Origin: a bacterium
GTDB taxonomy: Bacteria > UBP18 > UBA7526
Direction: 5' to 3'
DNA length: 24,359 bases
Assembly (NCBI GenBank): GCA_030615855.1
Contig: JAUWYL010000021.1
Coordinates: forward strand, 1-24,359
Below, in pieces: positions 12,509-19,960 of the stretch; the first letter of the stretch is position 1, and each line of letters begins with the position of its first letter. A model generated the notes under the pieces. The model was given only the letters and a program-made list of their open reading frames with translations, ran no database searches and was not told where the DNA came from. A program made the translations under genes and the position numbers.

Positions 12509-13921
12509 ATGGAATACGAAGCAATAATCGGTCTGGAGATACATGTCCAGTCAAAGACAGAGTCTAAGATGTTCTGTTCTTGCAGTACGGAGTTCGGAGC
12601 TCCGCCCAATTCTCAAGTCTGTCCAGTATGTCTTGGATTACCGGGCGCCCTTCCCGTATTGAATGAGAAAGTGGTTGAGCAGGCGGTTAAAGCGGCCCTG
12701 GTGTTGAACTGTGATGTCTTAAAGGTTTCCTCATTTGATAAGAAGATCTACTTCTATCCTGATCTACCAAAGGGCTACCAGATATCCCAATATTATCAGC
12801 CACTTGCTAAGTCAGGTTACGTTGACATCAAAGTAAAAAATAAGCGAAGAAGGGTAAGAATAAGGCATCTTCATATGGAAGAGGATGTGGGCAAACTCAT
12901 CCATCAGAAAGGAATGAGTCTTGTTGATTTCAACCGGGCTAGCTTACCTCTGATTGAGATCGTTGCCGAGCCAGATATCCGTAGTTCTGAGGAAGCGGGT
13001 GAATTCTTGATGTGCCTGAGGAGTAACCTACGCTATGCCGGGGTTTCGGAGTGCAATATGGAGGAAGGGTCCCTACGCTGTGATGCCAATGTTTCCCTCA
13101 GGCCTTTGGGAACCCGTAAGTTATATACTAAAACTGAAGTTAAAAACATGAACTCCTTTAAGCATGTAATGAAAGCCATTGAATACGAAATAAAGCGCCA
13201 AAAAAGATCAGTGAAAAAGGGTGAAGCAGCAGTACTTCATACCCGTTGTTGGGATCCGGAGCGGGGAGTAACTGTTCCTATGCGTGGTAAGGCGCCGGCA
13301 CCTTGTATTTCCCATTCCGATCTGGGTCCGGTCATTTTAGATGAAGAGTTCATCGCCTCCCTGCGCAGTCAACTCCCCGAACTTCCCCTTGATCGTTCAG
13401 AAAGATTTATCCAACAGTATGGTATTCCAGCCTCTGATGCCAGCATCTTGACCTCTTCCAAGGAGTTAGCGGATTACTATGAGGAATGCGTCAAACTATA
13501 CAAGAAGCCGAAAGTGATTGCTAATTGGATAATGAGTGATTTATTGAGGGAACTGAAGGAGAAGGATATTGGAATAAGAGAGTGTAAGGTCAGTCCAGAG
13601 CATCTGGCGGAGATGATCACCTTGATAGATAAAGGAAGCATCTCGGGGAAGATGGCCAAGGATGTCTTCGTTGAGATGTTTGAGACGGGAGAGAAGGCCT
13701 CTCAGATTGTGAAAGAGAAAGGCCTTGCCCAGATAAGCGACAAAGAGGCGCTTGTCAAAATAGTCGACAAGACATTACAAGAGAATCCCAAGGTAGTTGA
13801 AGATTATAAGAAGGGAAAGGAGAAAGCCTTAGGATACTTAGTTGGTCAGGTGATGAAGGAGACCAAAGGGAGAGCCAATCCTAAATTAGTCAATAAACTT
13901 CTTGAGAAAAAATTAAAGTAG
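12509..13921 (+). CDS. gatB: Asp/Glu-tRNA(Asn/Gln) amidotransferase subunit B
   Basis: GatB phosphorylates the Glu or Asp on the mischarged tRNA and amidates it with ammonia from GatA. The start is clear: M-E-Y-E-A-I-I-G-L-E-I-H-V-Q, with the zinc ligands C23, C25, C38 and C41. The kinase core follows (F-Y-P-D-L-P-K-G-Y-Q-I-S-Q, H-x-E-E-D-x-G, D-F-N-R-A-x-x-P-L-I-E-I-V). The helical and YqeY tail domain ends in K-G-R-A-N-P-K-L-V-N-K-L-L. ATG 12509 is preceded by GGGAG; an upstream in-frame GTG lies inside the repeat and is rejected. At 470 aa it is full length. Its last 49 bases recur, diverged, at 18376-18424. Confidence 0.96.
   Translation: MEYEAIIGLEIHVQSKTESKMFCSCSTEFGAPPNSQVCPVCLGLPGALPVLNEKVVEQAVKAALVLNCDVLKVSSFDKKIYFYPDLPKGYQISQYYQPLAKSGYVDIKVKNKRRRVRIRHLHMEEDVGKLIHQKGMSLVDFNRASLPLIEIVAEPDIRSSEEAGEFLMCLRSNLRYAGVSECNMEEGSLRCDANVSLRPLGTRKLYTKTEVKNMNSFKHVMKAIEYEIKRQKRSVKKGEAAVLHTRCWDPERGVTVPMRGKAPAPCISHSDLGPVILDEEFIASLRSQLPELPLDRSERFIQQYGIPASDASILTSSKELADYYEECVKLYKKPKVIANWIMSDLLRELKEKDIGIRECKVSPEHLAEMITLIDKGSISGKMAKDVFVEMFETGEKASQIVKEKGLAQISDKEALVKIVDKTLQENPKVVEDYKKGKEKALGYLVGQVMKETKGRANPKLVNKLLEKKLK
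13873..13921 (+). repeat. gatB 3' end, left copy of island-flanking direct repeat
   Basis: These 49 bases align without gaps to 18376-18424, with 41 identities (84%). The frame, the stop codon and most residues are kept (A-N-P-K-L-V-N-K-L-L-E-K-K-L-K here). Two copies of a gene's 3' end around foreign-looking genes is the usual footprint of site-specific integration into that gene. Confidence 0.7.
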
Positions 13922-13933
13922 AAAAAACCCTAT

Positions 13934-13950
13934 CCCACCTCGTAGGTGGG
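13934..13950 (+). terminator. hairpin after gatB, possible terminator
   Basis: CCCACCT (13934-13940) and AGGTGGG (13944-13950) form a 7-bp stem with a 3-base loop. The flanks can extend it imperfectly (CCTA before, TAAGG after). The T-rich stretch comes only about 15 bases later (13966-13976), so intrinsic termination is uncertain. Confidence 0.45.
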
Positions 13951-13981
13951 TAAGGTTGGTGGAACTTTTATTTTGTATGGA

Positions 13982-14020
13982 TTGTTGCAAATCTTGTCCG
14001 ATCGGACACAAGTTGCAACA
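13982..14020. promoter_or_regulatory. palindromic element, copy 1
   Basis: The core TGTCCGATCGGACA is a perfect 14-bp palindrome. It is flanked by TTGTTGCAA on the left and TTGCAACA on the right, so the arms extend to about 39 bases with one or two offsets. The element recurs almost unchanged at 18587-18625. Its right arm contains the TTGCAA that could be the -35 box of the promoter below, which would make it a possible operator. No T-run follows, so it is not a typical terminator. Confidence 0.55.
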
Positions 14021-14040
14021 ATTGGGATTTATGTTATAAT
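14013..14040 (+). promoter_or_regulatory. sigma-70-like promoter
   Basis: TTGCAA (14013-14018), a 16-base spacer, then TATAAT (14035-14040). A start near 14047 would give a leader of about 210 nt before the lipoprotein gene at 14259, passing through the transposase-like remnant. The promoter may originally have served that transposase. Confidence 0.45.
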
Positions 14041-14129
14041 CTTTGGTAGTATGGCGAAAGATAAAGTTAAGAACTATACGTCCATAATTTTAAGGCAGAA
14101 ACTCGGTAAGATCTTTGAGGGTTTTGGCG

Positions 14130-14243
14130 ATGAAACCAGAACCGTCCCCAATACACATCGCGGAACAAAAGTTTTCGTTTGTTTTAAAAGTCCTTCAGGG
14201 CAACAAAACGGTCTCCAAAATATGCAGGGAGGAAGGTGATTTA
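14130..14243 (+). pseudogene. N-terminal remnant of a transposase-like HTH protein
   Basis: From ATG 14130 the reading gives a segment with A-E-Q-K-F, then V-L-K-V-L-Q-G-N-K-T-V-S-K-I-C-R-E-E-G. This is the pattern of the first helix-turn-helix of IS3/IS66-group OrfA transposases (E-Q-K-x-x-x-V-L-x-x-L-x-G-x-K-T-V-x-x-I-C-R-E-x-G). It breaks off after 34-38 residues, exactly where the usual 'I-S-x-x-x-F-Y-x-W' would follow. The frame then runs without a stop into the lipoprotein gene at 14259. I read it as the 5' stub of a lost insertion sequence. Confidence 0.5.
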
Positions 14244-14258
14244 ATGGAGGTACGACTA

Positions 14259-15326
14259 ATGAATAGAATAGGAAAATTTATTTTGTTATTTCTACCTTTA
14301 ATGCTTGTTGGATGTGCAGGTGGAATGAGAACTTCGTTTACTACCTTTGAAAAAGATAGAGTTGAAATAACAAAAAGTTCACCAGTTGAAGAAGCAATTC
14401 ATGACCTGTCTAAACAATTGAAACAAAAGGGAATAGAAAAATTGAAAATATGCATGGGGCAATATACTTATCAGGATAGTAATATGAGCGCTGCCTTTAG
14501 TACGTTTATTTCATCAGAATTAAGCAAAGTCGTGATAAGCTGTCCTGCTTTTGAGGAAATTTCACGCAAAGAGTTAAACCAGATACTGGAAGAGCAAAAA
14601 TTATCTTTGACTGGGCTGATTGACCCAACTGAAGTTACTGAAGTAGGGAAAATTAAGGGTGTTGATGCAATTTTAACTGGCAACTATTGGGAACAAGATA
14701 CAGATGTAAGAGTAAATCTTTTCTTAATTAAAGTAGTAACAGCAGAGAAAATTGCTGGTACTTCTTTTGTCCTTGCAGAAAATACTCTACCTCAGGGATT
14801 GGGGCTGAAACCTAAAAATTACGATGATTGCCTATCAAATATTCAAACCTGGAATGAAGAAAAAGGTTCTGCCAAGGACCTTAAAATTAAAGTGTGGGTA
14901 GATAAAGGGAAGAGTGGTATTTACAAAGAAGAAGAAAATATAAAGGTAATTTTCAAAGCAAATCGGAACTGTTATGTTCGTTTATATCATGTTAATGCTG
15001 AAATGGAAATCCAGATGCTTTTCCCCAATCTTTATGACAAAAATGACTATATTAAAGCGAATCAAGTTTACTCAATTCCTGACGAAGCAAGTGCTTTTGA
15101 ATTTAAAATATCTCCACCTTTTGGTGCCGAGATTATAAAAGCAGTAGCAAGTTTACAGCCCTTTCCCACTGAAGAAATTCCTTCTGATAATAAAATGGTT
15201 TTCCGTTCTTTAGGCCGGGCTACACAAAACAATATTCGGGGAATAATGACGAGAAGCATATCAATCATTCCAGTTAATGCTCGTACCGAAGATATGTGTA
15301 TATTTACAACAATAGAAAATAAATAA
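14259..15326 (+). CDS. FlgO/CsgG-like lipoprotein with C-terminal DUF4384 domain
   Basis: The signal peptide ends in a lipobox (L-V-G-C, Cys19), so the protein is lipid-anchored. Residues about 45-180 resemble the FlgO/CsgG-type domain. They share the pattern L-x-x-I-L-E-E-Q-K-L-S-L-T-G, then E-V-G-K-I-K-G-V-D-A-I-L-T-G, with the proteins at 18704 and 20155. Residues about 206-300 match DUF4384: a K-V-W-V-D-K start, then C-Y-V-R-L-Y-H and I-Q-M-L-F-P-N. I chose ATG 14259, which has GGAGG eight bases upstream, because it gives a clean signal peptide; ATG 14244 is possible. The gene is AT-rich (35% GC in a sampled 60 bases). In other genomes DUF4384 often accompanies peptidases and CHAT proteins, as here. 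Function is unknown. Confidence 0.75.
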   Translation: MNRIGKFILLFLPLMLVGCAGGMRTSFTTFEKDRVEITKSSPVEEAIHDLSKQLKQKGIEKLKICMGQYTYQDSNMSAAFSTFISSELSKVVISCPAFEEISRKELNQILEEQKLSLTGLIDPTEVTEVGKIKGVDAILTGNYWEQDTDVRVNLFLIKVVTAEKIAGTSFVLAENTLPQGLGLKPKNYDDCLSNIQTWNEEKGSAKDLKIKVWVDKGKSGIYKEEENIKVIFKANRNCYVRLYHVNAEMEIQMLFPNLYDKNDYIKANQVYSIPDEASAFEFKISPPFGAEIIKAVASLQPFPTEEIPSDNKMVFRSLGRATQNNIRGIMTRSISIIPVNARTEDMCIFTTIENK

Positions 15327-15518
15327 TAAAAGAAGATAAAAACATGTCAAACGCATTTCACTCCCCTATTACGGCCCCGGACGCAGCTTCAAAACCATGG
15401 AAAAGTATATCCATCTGCACTCAAACTCCGTCATGCTCGTAAAGGCGAGAAGAAATAAAGAAAGACTTTGATAGCTTAAAGGGGAAGGCTTTTGATGAAA
15501 TTTAACAGCAGGTAAAAT

Positions 15519-15722
15519 GTGTTTAAATTTAAGAGTTTATTCCGCTTTTTAGCGGTCGGGTTTGGAATTATTGCCATACTGTCAATCAGCCCTGTTTGTG
15601 TCTCTGCCTCTGAAAAGTCCGAGGTTTTTGTGCCGCGGGGGTATATTATTCATGAGGTGATTAAATTGCGAAGGACAAAATCCCAAAGCAATCGCAATTC
15701 TTTAAAACCAAAAACGAAGTGA
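15519..15722 (+). CDS. small exported protein, 67 aa
   Basis: A GTG start follows a weak AGG. The N-terminal 31 residues form a clear signal peptide: K-F-K, then a hydrophobic core, then V-S-A with cleavage before S-E-K. The mature part is about 36 residues, basic at its end (K-L-R-R-T-K-S and K-P-K-T-K). The stop lies three bases before the CHAT gene start, so the two are almost certainly cotranslated. I know no family for it. The preceding 192 bases (15327-15518) contain no gene I can support, only short broken frames. It could be a substrate, an inhibitor or an accessory of the CHAT protein, but nothing in the sequence shows which. Confidence 0.5.
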   Translation: MFKFKSLFRFLAVGFGIIAILSISPVCVSASEKSEVFVPRGYIIHEVIKLRRTKSQSNRNSLKPKTK

Positions 15723-15725
15723 ATC

Positions 15726-18011
15726 ATGAAAAATATCCTTAAGTTTTTGATAATTGCAGTCCTTCTGATATTCAGCAGCGGCTGTGCCGGTTTCTTCAAG
15801 GTCATTAAAGTCAGTTCCCTCATGCAGAAAAAACGCCATCACGAGGTAATCCAGATCCTCCAGCAGGATATTGACCGTAAGGAGGCGATCTCCTCGTTTC
15901 AGTTATATTTTCTAAGCGCCGCCTACTATGAGATCAAGGATTATGAAAAAATGCTCTTGACTGTAGATCTGATGGAAAAACAGATCGCCCGTGGCGACGC
16001 CCGCCATTATTTCGGCGCCGACCTTTCCGTGTTCCCCGGGATTCTCCGCGGCTACGCCTATCTTGACATGGGGGATTACGACAAGGCTATCAAGGCGGCG
16101 TCCGCGGCCAATTCCATCCTGAACCGGGCTGGCGGCAAATCCAATCTTTTGTATCGCGCACAACTTATTGATATCGTTGGTATTCTGGGTGTAGCCCATG
16201 CCCATCTGAACCACGATGCAGAGGCGGATCGCTGGATCGAAGTCCTGCGGACTATAGATATCAGCGAAACCAATCTGGGTCCCGAAAAATTCATCGCCAT
16301 CGCTAGGATTCACATGGCGAAAAAACAGTATCCCCAAGCCTTATCCGCCATACAGGAACCGGAGGCAAAAGTCCCCGGCTTTGGTACGGTTTTCTATGAC
16401 CAGACCTTTCAGGAACTTCCAAAATTCTTTATTTTGACGAAGTGTCTATATGAAACAGGAAAAATGCATGAGGCCAGAGAGAATTATGACCAGCTCCTGA
16501 AACATCCCCAAATCAAGCAGATAGGAGGACTTCACTGGCCAATCCTTTTAGATCGGGCCAGAATCGCCCGCATGGAAGGTAAGGAAGCAATAGCTGAACA
16601 GCTTCTCAGAGAGGCTGTCGATGTGATCGAGAAGCAACGATCCTCCATCAGGTCGGAGGCCGGGAGGATCGGTTATGTAGGCGATAAACAGGCCGTTTAT
16701 CAGGAATTGGTTGCTCTGCTGATTTCCGGAGGCCGTCCGGCGGAAGCCTTTGAATATGTGGAGCGCTCAAAATCCAGGGCGCTTGTGGATTTACTGGCTT
16801 CAAATAAAGAGTTTGGTGTTTCAAAAGATAAAGAACAGGTTGTCTCCATGCTAAAAGAGCTTGAAACAATTGAGTCAGAAGGCAAGGCCATTGATGTCAG
16901 CAGTCTCGCCCCGGAAAAGGTAAATCAAAGAAATATCAGAAGCATTCAGATTAAAGAGAGGATAAAGACCTTAGCGCCTGAACTGACATCTCTTATTACT
17001 GTCTCTATGCCCCCTCTGAACGAAATCCAGTCATACATCGCCGGTGATGAGGCACTCATTGAGTATTATTATCATGGAGAAGACCTTTATGTGTTTGTGT
17101 TGACTAAAAATACATTAAAGGCTGTAAAACTGGACGGTAAAGATATTTTGAAAGATATAGAGCAACTCAGAAAATTACTGCAAGACCCAAAATCAACTCA
17201 TTATCTTGAACCCTCGCAAAGACTATATCAGAGACTTATAAAGCCCGTTGAACATCTCATTAATACTCAAAGGCTTATCATTGTGCCTCATGGAATCCTT
17301 CACTATCTGCCCTTTAATGCCCTAAACAGCGGGAGCAGCTATCTTATAGACAAATATAGTGTCAGTTACCTGCCGAGCGCAAGCGTAATGAAATTTTTAA
17401 AACATAGGAAAACACAAAAGAAAGACATTGCATTGATTTTTGGAAATCCTGACTTAGGCGACCCCAGATATGACCTTAAACATGCGGAAGAGGAGGCAGT
17501 TGCAATATCAAAGGAATTCTTACAGGCAAAGGTGCTTTTAAGGAAAGATGCAACAGAGACAGACTTTAAGAAATCTGCAAATCAGTTCAACTACATCCAT
17601 TTTGCAACTCACGGCATGTTTGAATCCGACTCGCCTTTGAACTCAGGACTCTTTCTTTCAAAGGATGCTGAAAACGATGGATTAGTGAGCGTAAACGAAC
17701 TATATTCCCTTAGTCTGAACGCAGACCTTGTTACATTGAGCGCCTGTGAGACAGCATTGGGTAAAATCAATCCCGGAGATGATGTTGTGGGACTTCAAAG
17801 GGGATTCCTCTATGCAGGAAGCAGTTCAGTCATAGCCAGCCTATGGAAAGTGGATGACTTGGCAACCTCACAATTAATGACAGGATTTTATTCCAATCTG
17901 AAAAAGACAAATAAGCGTGATGCCCTGAGAGATGCGCAGTTGGCAGTCAAAAAGAATTTTGAACATCCCTATTTCTGGGCTGCCTTTCAGTTGACCGGGA
18001 TGGCTGAGTAG
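15726..18011 (+). CDS. lipid-anchored TPR-CHAT peptidase
   Basis: CHAT proteins are caspase-like cysteine peptidases of clan CD. The signal peptide ends in a lipobox (S-S-G-C, Cys20), which puts the protein in the envelope. Residues about 30-340 are helical TPR-like repeats. The CHAT domain covers about 410-755 and has the dyad H629 in F-A-T-H-G and C674 in S-A-C-E-T-A. It also has the family segments P-H-G-I-L-H-Y-L-P-F-N-A-L and S-V-I-A-S-L-W-K-V-D-D. At 761 aa it looks complete. It begins three bases after the small exported gene and 400 bases after the FlgO/DUF4384 gene. The N-terminal half is GC-rich (58% in one sampled line), the CHAT half is not (40%), so the gene may be a fusion. The substrate is unknown. 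Confidence 0.85.
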   Translation: MKNILKFLIIAVLLIFSSGCAGFFKVIKVSSLMQKKRHHEVIQILQQDIDRKEAISSFQLYFLSAAYYEIKDYEKMLLTVDLMEKQIARGDARHYFGADLSVFPGILRGYAYLDMGDYDKAIKAASAANSILNRAGGKSNLLYRAQLIDIVGILGVAHAHLNHDAEADRWIEVLRTIDISETNLGPEKFIAIARIHMAKKQYPQALSAIQEPEAKVPGFGTVFYDQTFQELPKFFILTKCLYETGKMHEARENYDQLLKHPQIKQIGGLHWPILLDRARIARMEGKEAIAEQLLREAVDVIEKQRSSIRSEAGRIGYVGDKQAVYQELVALLISGGRPAEAFEYVERSKSRALVDLLASNKEFGVSKDKEQVVSMLKELETIESEGKAIDVSSLAPEKVNQRNIRSIQIKERIKTLAPELTSLITVSMPPLNEIQSYIAGDEALIEYYYHGEDLYVFVLTKNTLKAVKLDGKDILKDIEQLRKLLQDPKSTHYLEPSQRLYQRLIKPVEHLINTQRLIIVPHGILHYLPFNALNSGSSYLIDKYSVSYLPSASVMKFLKHRKTQKKDIALIFGNPDLGDPRYDLKHAEEEAVAISKEFLQAKVLLRKDATETDFKKSANQFNYIHFATHGMFESDSPLNSGLFLSKDAENDGLVSVNELYSLSLNADLVTLSACETALGKINPGDDVVGLQRGFLYAGSSSVIASLWKVDDLATSQLMTGFYSNLKKTNKRDALRDAQLAVKKNFEHPYFWAAFQLTGMAE

Positions 18012-18101
18012 ATGAAGTGAGCCCTGTACGCATTTTTTATAAGCTAGTTTGTTTGCAAATTTAAATGATTGAGAATCACATGTCTGTAGTGAGGAGGAGA
18101 A

Positions 18102-18353
18102 ATGTCAATAATATTGCGCATGCTTACAATTGTTCTAATGATATTCATCTTCGCTGGAAATGCCTTTGCCGGCGAAGATGATCAGCCTAAAAAACTTTCT
18201 GACTACCAGACCCTCCTTAAACGGGTAATGAGTTTCGACCGCTCCGTTGACTTCAAGGTATTAAGAATTTCTTATGCGGAAACTGCCGACTATAACCCTT
18301 ACGGCGACGATAGGGTAAAAAAAACTGAAATATTTGTCAAAAGAACGATTTAA
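18102..18353 (+). CDS. exported protein fragment, resembles N-terminus of DUF4919-like proteins
   Basis: The start has a very strong ribosome binding site (AGGAGGAG). The signal peptide ends A-F-A before G-E-D-D. The mature part has L-x-D-Y-Q-x-L-L-x-R-V, D-F-K-V-L-R-I-S-Y-A and D-Y-N-P-Y-G. From memory this is the pattern of the first part of DUF4919-type periplasmic proteins, which are normally 200 residues or more. This one stops at 83 aa, and 22 bases later the gatB 3'-end copy begins. It therefore looks cut short at the edge of the inserted island. It may still be expressed. Confidence 0.5.
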   Translation: MSIILRMLTIVLMIFIFAGNAFAGEDDQPKKLSDYQTLLKRVMSFDRSVDFKVLRISYAETADYNPYGDDRVKKTEIFVKRTI

Positions 18354-18375
18354 ACCTTTTTTTCAACAATTTATT

Positions 18376-18424
18376 AGCCAATCCTCAGTTAGCCAATAAA
18401 CTTCTTAAGGAAAGATTGAAATAG
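18376..18424 (+). pseudogene. second copy of the gatB 3' end, right flank of island
   Basis: It codes, in the gatB frame, for A-N-P-Q-L-A-N-K-L-L-K-E-R-L-K and a stop, aligned without gaps to the true gatB end. There are 41 identical bases out of 49. Identity stops abruptly on the 5' side. The differences are mostly single-base changes that keep similar residues (K/Q, V/A, E/K, K/E, K/R). No start or rest of gatB is present. The stretch 18425-18640 after it has no gene, only two palindromes. Confidence 0.75.
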
Positions 18425-18533
18425 AATAAGTATGGAAACATTGCTGTAACGGTCGTCACCAGATTGTTTCCTCAGATATTAGGTAATCATAGAAAAGTCA
18501 TGCCATTGCAGATGTAGTGGCTTTTACTTTCAA

Positions 18534-18573
18534 ATGAGACAAATTTTGTGCGATCGCACATTTTTCGCCTCAT
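18534..18573. repeat. palindrome centred on CGATCG, related type
   Basis: TGTGCGATCGCACA is a perfect 14-bp palindrome. It sits within a 40-base element whose ends are ATGAG and CTCAT; the intervening arms match partly. The design (outer arm, spacer, TGTxCGATCGxACA) is the same as in the two copies at 13982 and 18587, with one symmetric base change. Confidence 0.5.
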
Positions 18574-18586
18574 CTAAGGTTCTGTT

Positions 18587-18625
18587 TTGTTGCAAGTCTT
18601 GTCCGATCGGACACAAGTTGCAACA
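18587..18625. promoter_or_regulatory. palindromic element, copy 2
   Basis: This repeats 13982-14020 with a single A-to-G change in the left spacer. The core is TGTCCGATCGGACA, with arms TTGTTGCAA and TTGCAACA. It ends 31 bases upstream of the -35 box of the promoter for the lipoprotein at 18704. Both copies lie upstream of FlgO/CsgG-like lipoprotein genes, and both lie downstream of a gatB 3' end. Confidence 0.55.
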
Positions 18626-18686: not shown

Positions 18687-18703
18687 TTGTATTGGGGGTC
18701 AAT

Positions 18704-19960
18704 ATGAATAGAAGATTACTGATTAGTCTATTAATTCTGACTCTCTTTCTTACAGGATGCGCTACGACAAAGGTGAAGTTCCAGAGGTTGAATAAGGCCC
18801 ACCGGGATATCAGGGGAGTGAAGAGGGTTGCGGTTCTTGAATTCCGAAGTTACGGTGGTCGTACGGAATCAGGAAGTGCAGCCTCTGATCTGCTCATCTC
18901 TGGGCTCGTAGAGCCGGGATTCTATGAGATTGTGGAGAGACAGAGGATTGATGCGGTGGTGCAAGAGCATAAGTTTAATCTCTCAGGAATGGTATCCGAT
19001 TCTACCATAAGAAAAATGGGAAGAATATTAGGGGTGGACGCAGTAATCTTCGGCACGGTTTCGGGATATGATGTGGAGAGCAGAAGGGGTTATACAACTA
19101 CTGCAGGATATTATGATAAGAAAAGCGGGGTTTATGTTCCCCCCAAGAAGCGCTTCTATACCATAAAGAGTGGGAGTGTGGCGGTAAGTTATCGGATGAT
19201 AAATATCGAGACAGGAAGGGTAATTGCCGCAAAATCGTTTCGCGAAAATTTTAGTCAAAAGCGCTATGATGGCGCTTTTTTCATGAGTAGGCTCCCTTCA
19301 GATGATTCTATCTTAAACGACCTTTTGGAGAAAGTAACCTCCCGGTTCGTGAATGAGATCTCTCCTCATTATGTAAGCAAGAAAAGGAAGCTGGAGAAAG
19401 GGAAGGGTTCCTTCCATACCAAGTACGGAGTAAGACTTGCTAAGACGGGGATGTGGGATGCGGCCATTGGGGAGTGGCAGAAAGCTTTAGAGAAGGACCC
19501 CAAGAACGCCTGGGCCCATAATAACTTAGGGATTGCCTATGAGAAGAGGGGCGAGGTCGCTAAGGCGAGAAGAGAATACCAGAAGGCAAATAAGTTAAAT
19601 CCCAAGGAGAAGGAGTATAAGAAAAGTTTAGTGGATTTAAAGAAAGCCCATGATAAAGCCCGTGGGGAGTATCTTGCTACCGGTTCCTTGAAAATGGTCA
19701 TTAGAAGAAAGGGCGATACGGTCTATATCGACCTGGGCAAGAAGCATGATGTAGGTGTAGGAGAGGTCTTCATCGTCTATCGTGAAGTAGCCATAAAGCA
19801 TCCGGTTACGGATGAGGTAATCGGGACAGAAGAGGAGAAGATTGGTAAGATAAAGGTAAACAAAGTTTCGGAGAAAATGTCTATTGCGCAAATAATAAAG
19901 GAGGACCCAGAGGATAAGATAAAGGTTAAGGATAAGGTGAGGAAAAGAGGAGGAAATTAA
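18704..19960 (+). CDS. CsgG-like lipoprotein with TPR and FlgT-C-like domains
   Basis: The lipobox is L-T-G-C (Cys19). Residues about 38-225 form a CsgG/FlgO-type domain (R-V-A-V-L-E-F, then E-H-K-F-N-L-S-G-M-V, then I-L-G-V-D-A-V-I-F-G). Residues about 238-310 hold TPR units (W-D-A-A-I-G-E-W-Q-K-A-L, then A-W-A-H-N-N-L-G-I-A-Y-E-K-R-G). Residues about 328-415 resemble the C-terminal domain of FlgT (V-Y-I-D-L-G-x-x-x-x-V-G-V-G-E-V-F-x-V-Y). I chose ATG 18704 over an upstream TTG because the TTG overlaps the ribosome binding site. CsgG proteins form outer-membrane pores and FlgT belongs to the Vibrio flagellar H ring; a pore or ring component is plausible here. Confidence 0.8.
   Translation: MNRRLLISLLILTLFLTGCATTKVKFQRLNKAHRDIRGVKRVAVLEFRSYGGRTESGSAASDLLISGLVEPGFYEIVERQRIDAVVQEHKFNLSGMVSDSTIRKMGRILGVDAVIFGTVSGYDVESRRGYTTTAGYYDKKSGVYVPPKKRFYTIKSGSVAVSYRMINIETGRVIAAKSFRENFSQKRYDGAFFMSRLPSDDSILNDLLEKVTSRFVNEISPHYVSKKRKLEKGKGSFHTKYGVRLAKTGMWDAAIGEWQKALEKDPKNAWAHNNLGIAYEKRGEVAKARREYQKANKLNPKEKEYKKSLVDLKKAHDKARGEYLATGSLKMVIRRKGDTVYIDLGKKHDVGVGEVFIVYREVAIKHPVTDEVIGTEEEKIGKIKVNKVSEKMSIAQIIKEDPEDKIKVKDKVRKRGGN

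Follow-up and report, generated by a model that had tools for sequence, protein, structure and literature searches.

Displaced 3' ends are known from T6SS effector-immunity arrays and as Rhs orphan 3' ends, and homology-facilitated illegitimate recombination, events of which are rare, has been proposed to produce them (PMC5361080). In such footprints, a new module is placed beside an anchor of homologous sequence, and what remains of the ancestral 3' end is found shifted downstream (PMC5361080). In a second class of systems, the integrative elements and genomic islands that enter a gene at its 3' end and rebuild it, cargo is flanked by a direct repeat of the gene end, and relatives contain an empty site. 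The locus described here, downstream of gatB in an uncultured UBP18 bacterium, resembles both. In contrast to the T6SS/Rhs footprints, however, its presumed anchor gatB is a housekeeping gene that is still functional, the remnant is just a 54-bp tail, and a single genome is the basis of the inference. Unlike integrative elements at gene 3' ends, the locus displays no integrase, no intact right terminus, and no recurrence at gatB elsewhere.

The window (the whole stretch of DNA that was analysed, 24,359 nucleotides) comprises the entire contig C37 of a MAG of 1.375 Mb in 45 contigs, and close relatives of this genome fall within the candidate phylum UBP18. Five other genomes of the family were used for comparison, two of the same genus (G001 and G002) and three from two other genera, namely G003 (UBA7526), G004 (KR13_S3.mb.88), and G005 (UBP18 genome). 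The features of the locus are as follows.

12509 to 13921, forward strand: gatB, functional and mosaic (Pfam GatB_N and GatB_Yqey; codon-window identities; codon usage)
13873 to 13926, forward strand: left copy of the gatB tail, which completes the functional gatB (repeat search, 45/54 to the right copy)
13928 to 13957, forward strand: dispersed UBP18 intergenic repeat of the CCCACCTCGTAGGTGGG type (copies at G000:C23, C34 and G003:C3)
13982 to 14022, no strand assigned: dispersed 40-nt palindrome (further copies in the genome)
14133 to 14240, forward strand: what may remain of the helix-turn-helix of an IS3-type transposase (HTH_Tnp_1 at E 0.09-0.16, short of the family cut-off)
14257 to 15326, forward strand: CsgG/DUF4384 lipoprotein gene, cargo (DUF4384 1.9e-23, CsgG 2e-7)
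15519 to 15722, forward strand: small exported protein, 67 aa (open reading frame with a signal-like N-terminus; no family in Pfam)
15726 to 18011, forward strand: TPR-CHAT lipoprotein gene, cargo (CHAT 4.6e-74)
18102 to 18353, forward strand: DUF4919 gene without its C-terminal ~110-130 codons (BLAST 1e-7; N-terminal motif of a DUF4919 protein)
18376 to 18429, forward strand: gatB tail, right copy; this is the old end, now displaced (BLAST, 89% to the G003 gatB end)
18432 to 18525, forward strand: native gatB 3' flank with a terminator-like hairpin at 18502-18521 (G003 match; terminator scan)
18587 to 18625, no strand assigned: the 40-nt palindrome again, here ahead of the native csgG (repeat search)
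18692 to 19960, forward strand: native CsgG-TPR gene, directly after gatB in relatives (G005 84%; G004 76% after the scar)

The preliminary description had reported that the 3' end of gatB recurs ~4.5 kb downstream, and this was confirmed. The last 49 bases of gatB (13873-13921) match 18376-18424 at 41 of 49 positions, gapless and in frame through the stop codon, and the match extends to 13926/18429 with 45 of 54 positions identical. A genome-wide search with the gatB tail gave no third copy; the E value of the second was 2.0e-9. The local alignment score of tail against tail was 29, vs. a maximum of 14.5 among 300 shuffles and of 15.5 across ~90 gatB loci from elsewhere. The homology of the two tails begins abruptly at 13873/18376, and the displaced tail is still gatB-like in its reading (ANPQLANKLLKERLK). 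The copies are 83% identical and thus differ at 17% of positions, which is about the between-genus divergence in this family, where core genes are ~81-85% identical between genera. Compared with the gatB end of G003, the displaced non-coding copy matches at 47/54 positions and the functional copy at 42/54. Outgroup tails split the changes roughly evenly between the two copies, and neither is polarised as the more changed.

The polarity of the arrangement was obtained from the relatives. In G005, the homologue of the CsgG-TPR gene (window 18692) begins 40 bp past gatB and is followed by homologues of 21576, 22360, and 24222. In G003, gatB continues into sequence that matches 18376-18428 at 89% and 18462-18504 at 91% and that is followed by the 24222 homologue; immediately 3' of gatB, 44 nt match the window flank at 91%. 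Because part of this flank match is a dispersed repeat, a type to which the 18432-18525 flank also belongs, the G003 match was set aside as sole proof of polarity, and G005 and G004 were added. G004 carries a gatA::gatB deletion scar (L045:599-810), in which gatA codons 1-~48 are fused to the gatB tail, followed by csgG; the joint lies at TGATGAAGGA, which is common to gatA-like and gatB-like sequence when compared with the gatB ends of the window and G005. Besides this in-place scar, gatA, gatB, and a second gatC of G004 sit on another contig. The entire gatB region is absent from G001 and G002, and these two genomes are uninformative on polarity.

The unoccupied site is thus represented by G003 and G005, plus the G004 scar, showing that the ancestral order was uvrD-gatC-gatA-gatB-csgG. 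Comparison at the sequence level establishes 13927-18375 as an insertion after gatB and 18376-18429 as the old gatB end. This bears out the earlier proposal that the 14-18 kb block was inserted and that the downstream copy is the displaced end, and relatives in which the downstream sequence directly follows gatB do exist. The opposite pattern, with the 14-18 kb genes in all relatives and no second gatB end, was not seen: the island CHAT gene was found in 0/5 of the other family genomes, two of which (G001 and G002) are without the whole region. As in the window, the gatB tail remains upstream of csgG in the G004 scar. Unlike in G004, where gatAB was replaced in place, the window keeps a full gatB adjacent, with cargo in between.

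The gene content listed for the island in the preliminary description (DUF4384, small exported, CHAT, and truncated exported proteins) also held, with refinements. The 'truncated exported protein' of 83 aa proved to be a DUF4919 protein reduced to its N-terminus. The transposase-like stub gives only a weak match to HTH_Tnp_1. The TPR-CHAT protein has both the His motif HFATHG and the Cys motif SACETA, and its best relative is 43% identical. The CHAT and DUF4384 genes also occur side by side in an unrelated genome (G211, L200). In codon usage and strand skew, the CHAT and DUF4919 genes are the most host-unlike. The CsgG/DUF4384 and TPR-CHAT pair (14257-18011), with its caspase-like dyad motifs, may represent a membrane-anchored protease module.

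The two edges of the island were compared with what an intact element would present. At the right edge, the DUF4919 gene retains 83 aa, compared with 193-221 aa in full-length members (family ~190-220 aa), and breaks off ~25 bp ahead of the right gatB tail; since the gene is cut, no intact element terminus is present there. At the left edge, the first 100 bp past the tail consist of two dispersed UBP18 intergenic repeats, and the clearly acquired DNA therefore starts after ~14030 rather than at the gatB end. Judged by these repeats, the left edge looks like a chromosomal fragment of a UBP18 relative, although the repeats may postdate the insertion.

The palindromes at 13982 and 18587, which have a 29-nt exact run in common and follow both gatB tails, were considered as island borders and rejected, as the copies on C35 sit between ordinary chromosomal genes. 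Such ~40-nt palindrome families, with the core TTGTCCGATCGGACA or GTGCGATCGCAC, are dispersed in UBP18 intergenic regions (13982-14022, 18534-18571, and 18587-18625 in the window; also L046, L047, L048, and L049). Their outer arms vary while complementarity is kept, and the first type has ~10 copies in the window genome. The right arm of the palindrome at 13982 gives a promoter-like TTGCAA-16-TATAAT (14013-14040) ahead of the DUF4384 gene.

Recombination at this locus is also evident within gatB. Over the N-terminal ~320 codons, the window is 82-92% identical to G003 vs. 40-75% to G004/G005, and the GatB catalytic domain (12509-13450) is 88% identical in amino acids to that of G003. The GatB proteins of the window and G003 are without the (H/F)(D/E)YRYFPEPDL motif, which nearly all of 98 other GatB proteins contain, and the N-terminal part of gatB shows host-unlike codon usage. 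On these identities and this codon usage, the N-terminal ~320 codons are a xenolog common to the window and G003, and the C-terminal part is native to UBP18. In this C-terminal part, the three relatives all stand at about the same distance from the window (75-80%), so the left crossover of the island event can be placed no closer than in or after gatB.

The reading that best fits these data, to which we assign a probability of about 0.5, is that incoming DNA was anchored through homology in gatB while its other end was joined illegitimately, pushing the old tail downstream. The incoming DNA would have combined a foreign lipoprotein operon (CsgG/DUF4384, the small exported protein, TPR-CHAT, and part of DUF4919) with intergenic sequence of the UBP18 type and a tail of gatB, and would have recombined with the chromosome through gatB-like sequence on its left. 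Its other end, broken inside DUF4919, may then have been joined to the recipient gatB ~54 bp before the gatB end. The functional gatB would now carry the incoming tail; the old tail, with the native 3' flank and terminator, lies 4.5 kb downstream as a non-coding scar. Such a course would not require a dedicated integrase, and the pattern is the one expected from homology-facilitated illegitimate recombination. The right junction fits this expectation, with no extended homology and the donor DUF4919 gene cut at an arbitrary point. No possible donor genome, with this operon behind gatB, was found. Taken together, the polarity, the absence of the CHAT gene from relatives, the cut in DUF4919, the UBP18 repeats on the left, the genus-level divergence of the tails, and the other recombination at the gatB locus appear to favour capture anchored in gatB, which we rank above a decayed integrative element and, third, a trimmed duplicate of gatB.

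An integrative element, whose integrase inserted it at the gatB 3' end with a replacement tail and whose right part and integrase were later lost, is a tentative and rather unlikely second choice. Several features of such elements were found, namely a direct repeat at either junction, of which one copy completes gatB and the distal copy is the displaced gene end, and the empty site in relatives; in addition, a divergent replacement tail is typical of attP copies. In contrast, no integrase was found, intact ends do not abut the repeats, and other elements were not seen at the site. Neither a tyrosine recombinase nor a remnant of one was detected in the island, in open reading frames or in reading frames searched with Pfam and an integrase profile, in agreement with the preliminary description, which had seen no integrase. 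The scope for serine recombinases was the Pfam scans of the island proteins. The single tyrosine recombinase match of the genome was a XerC/D-like protein of 295 aa. A stretch at 15362-15470 (PGRSFKTMEKYIHLHSN) resembles an integrase tyrosine box by eye, but a local integrase profile, like searches against Pfam, plasmids, and phages, gave no match. The cut gene at the right terminus and the host-type repeats in the 100 bp past the left tail also stand against an integrative element.

The suggestion that gatB serves as an integrase attachment site did not gain support. Among 80 other gatB loci, which were searched for integrases beside gatB over 565 kb of DNA downstream, none had a second gatB end and none had an integrase, and no report of gatB as an attachment site was found in the open literature that was searched. 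With no integrase or remnant, no re-use in these loci, and a right end that truncates a gene, the idea of an attachment site, though conceivable, lacks support. In its specific form, gatB would be a real attachment site of a UBP18 integrative-element family, the attP having a diverged tail, and this copy would be one deprived of integrase and right end, or one mobilised in trans; we regard this as improbable.

According to a third explanation, a second gatB once stood past the island, derived from single-crossover integration or tandem acquisition, and a deletion running from DUF4919 into it spared only the last 54 bp. This would account for both the truncation of DUF4919 and the divergence of the tails, and the gatA::gatB scar of G004, whose gatA, gatB, and second gatC lie on another contig, offers a comparable case. 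It requires two events, however, and a tandem intermediate was found in no genome; we consider it unlikely, slightly behind the integrative element.

Transposition that left a target-site duplication as long as ~54 bp is disfavoured and very improbable: a transposase-like stub does lie near the left end, but target-site duplications of ~54 bp are rare and identical at birth, whereas the copies here differ at 17%, and the displaced, non-coding copy is not the more degraded of the two, as it matches G003 no worse than the functional copy does. The repeat search also revealed no terminal inverted repeats at the junctions. An assembly artefact, in which the contig would join two strains or organisms at a repeat, is similarly remote: the contig belongs to a MAG and the palindromes at 13982/18587 share their 29-nt run, but the longest exact run common to both gatB tails is 13 nt, so that an assembler would not be expected to join contigs there, and a misjoin at the palindromes alone would not set a gatB tail beside the native flank.

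The locus therefore provides a clean, polarised case, from a poorly sampled phylum, of a housekeeping gene whose old 3' end lies downstream of captured cargo. It also calls for caution, as a duplicated gene end alone does not prove an integrase attachment site. With its domain-level mosaic in gatB and the in-place gatAB deletion, the UBP18 gatB locus illustrates, on a small scale and in nature, how recombination can recur around an essential gene.
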